From Brachyspira sp. G79 (GTDB taxonomy: Bacteria; Spirochaetota; Brachyspiria; Brachyspirales; Brachyspiraceae), in NCBI RefSeq assembly GCF_002379365.1, contig NZ_JQIU01000007.1:155802-196849 (forward strand): a stretch of DNA of 41,048 nucleotides, given 5' to 3'. Positions 3,168 to 5,611 of this stretch are shown piece by piece. The translations under genes were made by a program, and so were the position numbers. The notes below the pieces were generated by a model. It was not told the DNA's origin and made no database searches. It was given only the letters and a program-made list of their open reading frames with translations. Each line of letters opens with the position of its first letter. The stretch's first letter is position 1.

Positions 3168-3196
3168 TTGACATATTTAATTAATTAGTGTATAAT
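3168..3196 (+). promoter_or_regulatory. Perfect consensus sigma-70 promoter of the heptamer-repeat/lipoprotein locus
   Basis: TTGACA at 3168-3173 and TATAAT at 3191-3196, separated by exactly 17 bases. Transcription would start near 3203, about 25 bases before the leader ORF and about 285 bases before the lipoprotein start. The consensus match suggests a strong promoter, so control is likely to come after initiation. Confidence 0.85.
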
Positions 3197-3227
3197 TTCA
3201 AGTAACTATTTACTTAAAGAGAACATT

Positions 3228-3380
3228 ATGACAAGCATCAAGCATCAAGCATCAAGCATCAAGCATCAAGCATCAAGCATCAAGCATCAAGCATCAAGCA
3301 TCAAGCATCAAGCATCAAGCATCAAGCATCAAGCATCAAGCATCAAGCATCAAGCATCAAGCATCAAGCATCAAGCATAA
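3228..3380 (+). CDS. Leader ORF built of heptamer repeats (50 aa)
   Basis: ATG at 3228 is preceded by AAAGAGA at about the right distance (the same sequence precedes the gene at 1951). The peptide is Met-Thr followed by six copies of SIKHQAS and a final SIKHQA, then TAA at 3378-3380. It is wholly encoded by the 7-bp repeat, whose period is coprime with three, so all three frames stay open through the tract. The number of repeat units therefore decides which frame leaves the tract and where translation stops. No family is recognised. The role as a regulatory leader peptide rather than a functional protein is inference. Confidence 0.5.
   Translation: MTSIKHQASSIKHQASSIKHQASSIKHQASSIKHQASSIKHQASSIKHQA
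3232..3378. repeat. Tandem heptanucleotide repeat, 21 perfect copies of CAAGCAT
   Basis: Exactly 147 bp made of 21 identical CAAGCAT units with no interruption. The unit has two G or C of seven against a far more A+T-rich background. Perfect short tandem repeats of this length are prone to slipped-strand mispairing and are the hallmark of phase-variable (contingency) loci. The tract lies between a consensus promoter and a surface lipoprotein gene. It is not CRISPR: there are no spacers. Confidence 0.97.
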
Positions 3381-3439
3381 TAATATTATTTTATTTATTA
3401 CACATCATTATTTTATATCAAAAAAATTATTATGATAAC

Positions 3440-3463
3440 AAAGTCATACCTTTTGACTTTTTA
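3440..3463 (+). terminator. Weak hairpin/attenuator candidate in the lipoprotein leader
   Basis: AAAGTCA (3440-3446) pairs with TGACTTT (3454-3460) around a 7-base loop, followed by a short T stretch. Only two of the seven pairs are G-C, so it is weak as a terminator. It lies between the heptamer tract and the AAGGAG ribosome binding site at 3475-3480, and only one of the three leader reading frames would carry ribosomes across it. Confidence 0.35.
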
Positions 3464-3487
3464 TAAAAATATTTAAGGAGTAAAACT

Positions 3488-5467
3488 ATGAAAAAGTTTT
3501 TTTTACAATTTTTTATAGCAGCTTTAGTAACCATTATTGCTGTAAGCTGTTCTAAAAGCCCAACAAATCCATCAGGAGGTATTAACACACCTGCCAGTCC
3601 TAGCGAATTTGTAGAAAAATTAAAATATATAGGCATGGTAAAGGCAGGAGAGCAGGAGTGGAATTTTGCGACTATTAGTCAATCTGGAAATGTTTTGACA
3701 GTAAAGCCTATGAATAATAATAAGTCTGGATATTTAAGAGGGCTTGAAAATTATATAAGAGAAAAAATATATGAAATTGAAGAAAGTTTTCAATATGAAG
3801 TGAACTTTATCACTTCTGACAGTACTGCCTCAGACGGATCGGAACCCAATTCGCAAGCAAACAGTAATCCTTTAGAAGCAAAAATAACTTTTGATGACAA
3901 ACAAACTGGAAACCCAGTAACTGATGCAAATTTTAAAGACGGCTTTATATTAAAAATAGAAGCTAATGCAAATTGGGCAGTTACACCTGAGGCTACAGAA
4001 GAAGATTATAAAAAATCTATCAATCAATTAGGCACTATAAATGTAACAGGTAAAAGCGGAAATACTTTTGCTGTTAATTTTGGCGATTTAAATGTAACTA
4101 AAGAAAGTCAATATAGATATACTGCTAACTTAACTATAGACGCTAACGGCAAAACTGATACTATTGATTTACTTAACTTTGTAAATGCTATAGAAGGACA
4201 AATATCAAAATCAAAAACAGAGTATTTAGAAATATCTTATGTATCTATTAGTAGTGAAAATAGTTTCTATATTAGTTTTAATCAGGTATCTGCTAATAAA
4301 GTAATAAATAATTCTGTTAATCTTCAGGTAAACTTTAGTGGAAATTTAAGCTTTGCTAAAAGAGATTTGAGTATAACTATTAACAGCATACCTGAAATAG
4401 TTACAGACAACAGAGGTGAATATAAATCTGCTGAGTTTAATATTTCTACAGATGCAGAAAGTATAGGTTTTCAATCTACATCAATAGTAGAAACAACTTC
4501 AACAGGAATAAAAATTGATTATATTTCTGCCTCTTATTATAAAGAAGATGGAGCTGCATCTATACAATTGCAAGGTAATGATCTATTAAATGCCCATAAT
4601 ACTTTAAAAGCAGGAGAAACTGCAGAATTTGAAATAACTTTCACAGCAAGAGCTAGCGGATATAATGATAAAACAGATGTAAAAGTTACTCTTAAAATTA
4701 GAAAAGGAGATGACTTACCTGATATAACATTAGATGAGTTTAATACTTGGCTTAATACTATTGAAGTAAGCGGATTCAGCAAAAGTGTAGGCTCTGCTTC
4801 TCTTACTCTTACAGCATCAGCAGATACTACTCCAGATACAGCTTTAAATAACATTAAAGAGGCTTTGAAAAAACTTTCTAAAGATAAAATAGTTATTGAT
4901 GATTATAGTATAAATTATTTAAGCTGGAGTACATTCCCTACAGGAAATAAAGACGGCATTATAAATGTATATAGCATAGAGGCAGCAGAAGGATATGCAT
5001 TCAGTGATGAGTTAAATAATGGCGGCTATGCTAATTTTACAATAACAGTTAAAGCTGCATCAAGCTGGCCTTTAAATATATCTATAGAAGGTGCAGGTTC
5101 AAGTTCTTCAAATCCTTTAACTGTTAATTTGGGAGACGGAACTGTAAATACTCAAGTTTCTTATACAATAAAATATCCTGAAAATGCCCAACAGGCATAT
5201 AATATAAGCGTATCATCATTAAAACAGGCTGATTCAATAACTGACAGCTGGGGTTTAGTTGGTAATCAACTTTTTAATCAATATAATAGTTCGGCAGTAT
5301 TGGAGATACAGTCTTATGCAGTTCAAAATATAATAAATGATCAGAACATAGCTAAAGATTCATCTCAAGTTTATAAAGTTACTTTAACTGTAAACTATAG
5401 TATGAATGGTTCAGTTTTAGAAGATATTGATTTGTATGTAAAATTGGTTAAAGATTATTCTGCATAA
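3488..5467 (+). CDS. Large surface-type lipoprotein, probably phase-variable
   Basis: A 659-aa protein with a lipoprotein signal: basic Met-Lys-Lys, a hydrophobic stretch and the lipobox AVSC with the lipidated Cys at 21, followed by a Ser/Pro/Asn/Gly-rich tether (about 22-40). The rest is rich in Thr, Ser, Asn and Ile with many beta-strand-like segments and no Cys, suggesting tandem beta-sandwich modules on the cell surface. AAGGAG at 3475-3480 gives a strong ribosome site 7 bases before ATG. The gene lies under the 3168 promoter, behind the heptamer leader. A TAA ends it at 5465-5467, but the same frame stays open for another 47 codons. The function (adhesin, antigen) is inferred from type only. 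Confidence 0.85.
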   Translation: MKKFFLQFFIAALVTIIAVSCSKSPTNPSGGINTPASPSEFVEKLKYIGMVKAGEQEWNFATISQSGNVLTVKPMNNNKSGYLRGLENYIREKIYEIEESFQYEVNFITSDSTASDGSEPNSQANSNPLEAKITFDDKQTGNPVTDANFKDGFILKIEANANWAVTPEATEEDYKKSINQLGTINVTGKSGNTFAVNFGDLNVTKESQYRYTANLTIDANGKTDTIDLLNFVNAIEGQISKSKTEYLEISYVSISSENSFYISFNQVSANKVINNSVNLQVNFSGNLSFAKRDLSITINSIPEIVTDNRGEYKSAEFNISTDAESIGFQSTSIVETTSTGIKIDYISASYYKEDGAASIQLQGNDLLNAHNTLKAGETAEFEITFTARASGYNDKTDVKVTLKIRKGDDLPDITLDEFNTWLNTIEVSGFSKSVGSASLTLTASADTTPDTALNNIKEALKKLSKDKIVIDDYSINYLSWSTFPTGNKDGIINVYSIEAAEGYAFSDELNNGGYANFTITVKAASSWPLNISIEGAGSSSSNPLTVNLGDGTVNTQVSYTIKYPENAQQAYNISVSSLKQADSITDSWGLVGNQLFNQYNSSAVLEIQSYAVQNIINDQNIAKDSSQVYKVTLTVNYSMNGSVLEDIDLYVKLVKDYSA

Positions 5468-5611
5468 TACGTATTGGATTTAAGTATGAATATATATGAT
5501 AATGCTGCAGTTATTAATAATTTATCAAAAGTAGATAGTTATATATTCAGTGATACAGTGTTTGATACTTCAACTGGTATAACAATTGACTACTTCTCAA
5601 ACTTGGCTTGA
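5468..5611 (+). pseudogene. In-frame tail after the lipoprotein stop, a module remnant
   Basis: Directly after the TAA of the lipoprotein, the same frame continues for 47 codons to a TGA at 5609-5611. The tail contains TSTGITIDYFS, close to TSTGIKIDYIS inside the lipoprotein (about residues 337-347), and its first part also resembles the preceding internal strand pattern. It is therefore a decayed or alternative C-terminal module, separated by one stop codon, rather than random sequence. An ATG at 5486 lies in this frame but lacks a clear ribosome site. Confidence 0.55.

Follow-up and report, generated by a model that had tools for sequence, protein, structure and literature searches.

Phase variation through simple sequence repeats (SSRs) is well known. 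In the lex2A/lex2B locus of Haemophilus influenzae, a small upstream gene contains the SSR, a two-ORF layout also found in the Brachyspira loci described below, although the lex2A unit is a tetranucleotide, unlike those of Brachyspira. The placement of a repeat within a leader ORF is likewise already known, and leader-peptide phase variation has been experimentally proven for pil1 and pil3 of Streptococcus gallolyticus (Danne et al. 2014, PMC3894217). In pil1, as at the locus reported here, the SSR (22 GCAGA units in pil1) lies in a short leader ORF between the promoter and a surface gene, the copy number moves the frame and the leader stop, and leaders in the long state extend to the stretch ahead of the gene (PMC3894217). 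Neither leader peptides nor Brachyspira are mentioned in a 2025 review of phase variation (PMC11868660). Phase variation is also unmentioned in the Brachyspira genome papers PMC3532143, PMC2897892, PMC2650404 and PMC4476648, an absence that is weak evidence, as it comes from an incomplete open-access search; in two other Brachyspira papers (PMC5415613, PMC4267127) the term occurs once each.

Some members of the genus Brachyspira cause swine dysentery or intestinal spirochaetosis. We analysed a stretch of 41,048 nucleotides from Brachyspira sp. G79 (NCBI RefSeq assembly GCF_002379365.1, contig NZ_JQIU01000007.1, positions 155,802 to 196,849 of the forward strand), hereafter called the window, in which a CAAGCAT array precedes a lipoprotein gene. 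Judging from the sequence, this array quite probably forms a contingency locus that depends on the frame in which a leader is translated and is turned on and off by slippage.

The locus in the window

The first-pass annotation had described a perfect TTGACA-17-TATAAT promoter, an ATG with a ribosome site, 147 bp of flawless 7-bp repeats filling a 50-codon ORF, and a lipoprotein gene next to it; all of these features were found again in our analysis (Table 1). The array consists of 21.0 copies with a 100% match and 0 indels, and a TAA follows directly on its 3' side. It is a perfect short repeat with a unit that is not a multiple of 3, placed so as to shift a frame, as is expected of an SSR contingency locus. 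Two adjacent CAAGCAT units were encountered 0 times in 100 shuffles of the window, hence a chance match is not expected.

Table 1 Features of the window locus, with two further arrays of the same genome and one array at the start of a coding sequence. Window positions are counted from its first nucleotide; n is the number of repeat units.
Feature	Location	Strand	Remarks
Promoter	TTGACA 3168-3173, 17-nt spacer, TATAAT 3191-3196	+	12/12 consensus match
AAAGAG, likely ribosome site of the leader ORF	3216..3221	+	Sequence; AAAGAG also in the orthologue L053
Leader ORF	3228..3380	+	Sequence; ATG at 3228, 50 codons at n = 21
CAAGCAT array, 21 copies	3232..3378	+	Stop-free and start-free in every sense frame
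Leader from array end to gene, 109 nt	3379..3487	+	Frames close at +2, +57 and +88 nt
Weak hairpin AAAGTCA-TACCTTT-TGACTTT	3440..3460	+	Also in the orthologue L053
AAGGAG, ribosome site of the lipoprotein gene	3475..3480	+	Sequence; Shine-Dalgarno-type 6-mers show the top enrichment in the leader set
Lipoprotein gene, 659 aa	3488..5467	+	Signal peptide ending ...AVSC (lipobox)
CAAGCTC x11	G000:C8:1307202, L139 (window's own genome)		Upstream of another lipoprotein
ATCGC x24	G000:C8:350082, L179 (window's own genome)		Upstream of a glycine/sarcosine/betaine reductase subunit gene
CAAGCAA x17 at coding-sequence start	L140:1581-3080	-	N6/N4 DNA methylase with Mrr-type nuclease domain

At the sequenced n = 21, the leader comprises 50 codons and stops 2 nt past the array. 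With n = 22 it would be extended to 81 codons, its stop lying 88 nt past the array, beyond the hairpin and 21 nt before the ATG of the gene, while n = 23 would give 73 codons, the stop being placed 57 nt past the array for n = 20 or 23. The long frame traverses the hairpin (-3.5 kcal/mol, with a T-rich tail) and meets its stop just past it; the hairpin was not called as a terminator in a consensus terminator scan of the window leader. Taken singly, the open frame of this leader, with its stop 21 nt ahead of the ATG, is not significant (P = 0.17). The window is predicted to be in the short, OFF state, 22 copies being the predicted long state. More generally, and beyond what the first-pass annotation stated, a frame switch should recur with every third copy: 19, 22 and 25 copies are expected to be long, 18, 21 and 24 short, and 20 and 23 intermediate.

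A Pfam search of the window lipoprotein returned no family. Its AlphaFold model has a mean pLDDT of 84.5, and the best PDB matches of the model are tandem domains of adhesins, cadherins and immunoglobulins (Ig), with low whole-chain TM scores; the protein is thus predicted to consist of Ig-like beta-sandwich domains in series, an architecture known from adhesins. Its 659 aa compare with 817 aa in the L053 orthologue; what is left of the absent C-terminal part can be read just past the stop codon, at window positions 5468-5611.

Related arrays in the genus Brachyspira

The search covered 26 Brachyspira genomes, one per species, and 367 other Spirochaetota genomes. CAAGCAT arrays of at least three units occur in 9 of the 26 Brachyspira genomes and in 0 of the 367 others; they sit at unrelated loci, with a gene downstream on the sense strand. 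Relaxed patterns gave a unit set of CAAGCAT, CAAGCAA, CAAGCTC, CAAGACA, CAAGAAT and CAAGGCT, together with GAACTCA, GAACCGC and the pentamer ATCGC, the last being present in at least five copies in 17 of the 26 genomes; as the census is pattern-based, further unit types may be missed. A CAAG core is recurrent among the units, and none of the nine has a length divisible by 3 or carries a start or a stop in a sense frame. A promoter-like pair is found upstream of 56 of the 59 related arrays, and a leader ATG is open into the array at 57 of the 59 loci, compared with 28.9 expected. The repeat in a separate upstream ORF, which the first-pass annotation considered unusual, is in fact the rule at tens of loci in the genus and has a proven precedent in S. 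gallolyticus pil1 (PMC3894217). At many loci the ATG lies 6-9 nt past the -10 box, as for leaderless translation; the distance of 6-7 nt in L139, L132, L127, L130 and L138 suggests leaderless translation of these leader ORFs.

Homologues of the window lipoprotein carry an array in the equal position, made of 8 CAAGCAT units in L053, 15 CAAGAAT units in L059 and 13 ATCGC units in L060, while a paralogue (L059:4714) and the L061 homologue are without one. The G79 genome contains at least two further loci besides the window (Table 1), and the reductase subunit gene at one of them is a metabolic gene, which is unusual as the target of a contingency repeat. Three viral contigs have CAAGCAT arrays, all in unrelated repeats; the plasmid collection gave no match, and an Rfam search of six loci returned nothing. 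Other long SSRs were also seen, namely TTTG x28 at a contig end (L057:1-112) and AATATTATTG x9 (L051:9956-10045).

The copy number was found to diverge at nearly unchanged flanks. The arrays of L051 and L052, which belong to different species, count 15 and 3 units, and their flanks agree at 149/150 and 394/399 positions; for L131 and L133 the counts are 19 and 11, and the flanks agree at 143/150 and 383/400. Between species (L051/L052), the copy number hence changes much faster than the flanks, as contingency loci are expected to do. Many draft contigs terminate inside arrays.

Lipoproteins, among them a BspA-type LRR lipoprotein (L169), are the commonest targets of the leader arrays. Other targets are MCP chemoreceptors (L058, L056), glycosyltransferases of families 11 and 61 (L164, L168) and an MBOAT acyltransferase (L162). 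Such targets are typical contingency genes, which supports the reading of the arrays as switches. Families F and H had also been considered as chemoreceptors; Pfam gave no support to this assignment, and they are now regarded as membrane-type proteins of unknown family. Past the CAAGCAT arrays of L048 and L050, chemoreceptor-like genes are cut short, with 323 and 82 aa vs 595 aa in L058. Some arrays lie within coding sequences: the methylase of L140 (Table 1) is a candidate phase-variable methylase (phasevarion) in Brachyspira, and CAAGACA x19 and x11 (L131 and L133) are located near the N-terminus of a cNMP-binding protein, in the open phase in one genome and in a closed phase in the other. 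The arrays inside L140 and L131/L133 would be classical intragenic switches.

Open frames and a shared box in the leaders

The 54 SSR leaders were reduced to 18 clusters and one representative of each was tested; grouping on common 11-mers joins some AT-rich leaders that are not related, leaving fewer independent tests. In 15 of the 18 clusters one frame reaches to within 25 nt of the gene start and the others typically close, whereas the same reach is expected in 2.7 clusters from dinucleotide shuffles (Fisher P = 5e-8 for reach) and in 3.2 clusters from 72 real upstream regions without arrays. A joint statistic that adds the second frame was not relied on. Typically the long frame stops at the TGA of an ATGA overlapping the start of the gene, or else it continues into the gene without a frame change. 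When related leaders are compared, its substitutions are spread evenly over the codon positions (42/56/44); a conserved leader peptide was rejected on this ground, and the feature preserved is the openness of the ribosome path, not the peptide. Among the scorable loci, 41 of 46 are in a short phase, which is above the expected 2/3 (P = 0.0008, with loci that are not independent). This excess agrees with the OFF state being favoured and leaves room for the opposite sign: the short phase might even be the expressed state.

After Shine-Dalgarno motifs, ATTGCA is the most enriched 6-mer in the leaders. The form [AG]TTGCA is present in 31 leaders, with 4.1 expected over 55 leaders; in the comparison with control regions it is found in 31 of 54 leaders and in only 3 of 72 controls. 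The box, which has the consensus TcTtTtgttATTGCAaaaAttttT, is seen in L139, L132, L176, L165, L060 and others; the window leader does not contain the box. It is mostly positioned 28-107 nt past the array, in differing reading frames, and is therefore probably read as nucleic acid. One may speculate that there is a genus-wide network of leader frames that relies chiefly on translational coupling where the gene starts, not on a terminator, and in which a trans-acting RNA or protein reads the shared ATTGCA box and gates many switches together, though we consider such a network rather improbable.

Mechanism and comparison with known systems

The following mechanism may be proposed. After initiation at the leader ATG, ribosomes would read through the array, where no frame contains a stop. 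Slippage by plus or minus one 7-bp unit would change the frame in which they exit from the array. In one of the three copy-number classes (n = 19, 22 or 25 in the window), ribosomes would travel through the leader and beyond the hairpin and terminate at, or close to, the ribosome site and start codon that belong to the gene, which would then be expressed, the gain arising either from translational coupling or from protection of the leader against premature termination; in the remaining classes an early stop would turn the gene down. We infer that ribosomes do translate the leader, that ON corresponds to the long state and that populations undergo slippage. The ribosome sites of the genes are more occluded than those of control genes (0.28 vs 0.45 unpaired, P = 0.011), and translational coupling fits the loci because of these occluded sites and the ATGA overlaps. 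Against a frame switch, each gene has a good ribosome site of its own and could be translated without the leader. The first-pass annotation had proposed that copy number tunes or switches the lipoprotein; at the level of sequence, switching has good support from the frame test, from copy-number divergence at near-identical flanks and from the choice of targets, while tuning seems less likely than an ON/OFF frame switch.

Several other explanations have to be considered. In a transcription attenuation of the pil1 type, ribosomes on a long leader would melt a premature intrinsic terminator that forms when the leader is short. This mode is proven for GCAGA repeats in S. gallolyticus (PMC3894217), and it could make use of the weak hairpin with a T-rich tail that the window's long frame passes, or of the stronger ones in L164, L166 and L173. 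However, the consensus scan called no terminator in the window leader, such a hairpin is missing from 9 of the 18 clusters, and the leaders fold much as shuffles do (mean z -0.7). An intrinsic terminator as a general rule was rejected on the first two of these results, and folding as a general rule is weak on the third. We thus regard attenuation as possible but unlikely; it fits a minority of leaders, those with hairpins. Rho-dependent polarity, by comparison, requires no hairpin.

The same switch could also operate with the opposite sign: initiation at the gene would be blocked by a long leader ORF that extends over its start, so that the long class would be OFF and the two short classes ON. 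The 41 of 46 loci in a short phase and the genes' own ribosome sites speak for it, but several families have a long frame that is continuous with the gene, the long frame has to be the ON state at related intragenic loci, and ATGA overlaps usually help re-initiation; this sign is accordingly judged improbable. It is more doubtful still that the array is a nucleic-acid element whose length matters through spacing or through binding of a protein or small RNA, and not through the frame. The recurrent CAAG core, the ATTGCA box in many leaders and the case of H. pylori, where a small RNA recognises the repeat in the leader of tlpB, a chemoreceptor gene (PMC8295292), are all compatible with such an element, yet the frame layout is shared by homologous lipoproteins whose units are not the same (CAAGCAT, CAAGAAT, ATCGC), and the open frame and stop-free units are left unexplained. 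The equal position and orientation at many unrelated loci, the open-frame test and the enrichment of a leader ATG make it very improbable that the array is a neutral microsatellite in an untranslated leader, even though short repeats can drift without function.

The frame switch offers a testable account of how Brachyspira may diversify its surface lipoproteins, chemoreceptors and glycan enzymes. A switch whose repeat lies in a leader ORF suits exported proteins, because the repeat stays outside the signal peptide, and expression states might be predicted by extracting the copy number modulo 3 from sequence data that already exist.

Of the described systems, the leader of H. pylori tlpB is similar in that a variable repeat lies in the mRNA leader of a chemoreceptor gene, but there the repeat is a homopolymeric G-tract, a target of the small RNA RepG that exerts graded control with no leader ORF (PMC8295292); the window leader has no G-tract. 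H. influenzae hmw1A and hmw2A also have heptamer SSRs ahead of surface genes, located, however, in the promoter (PMC2651432). The TAACTGA heptamers of Beggiatoaceae are direct repeats of the same length upstream of many genes; they differ in having stop codons in the sense frame, in lying a few nt from start codons and in being proposed as a regulator binding site (PMC4679880), whereas the units in the window are stop-free and the array is 109 nt from the ATG. The closest system remains pil1 (PMC3894217). As in pil1, the SSR of the window is in a leader ORF with its own start signals, and a frame change shifts the leader stop. Unlike the Brachyspira loci, pil1 has a strong intrinsic terminator (-18.7 kcal/mol), and both of its out-of-frame classes are ON. 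A strong terminator between leader ORF and gene was not found in the window leader and is absent in 9 of the 18 clusters, and the Brachyspira loci, though they would operate much as pil1 does, were not filed as pil1-type attenuators because they mostly lack this element, which defines the pil1 mechanism. Instead, they typically have one long frame, often ending at an ATGA, and mostly heptamer units, in an arrangement that is repeated genus-wide, suggesting that leader-ORF repeat switching, proven in one streptococcus, may be a wider strategy.
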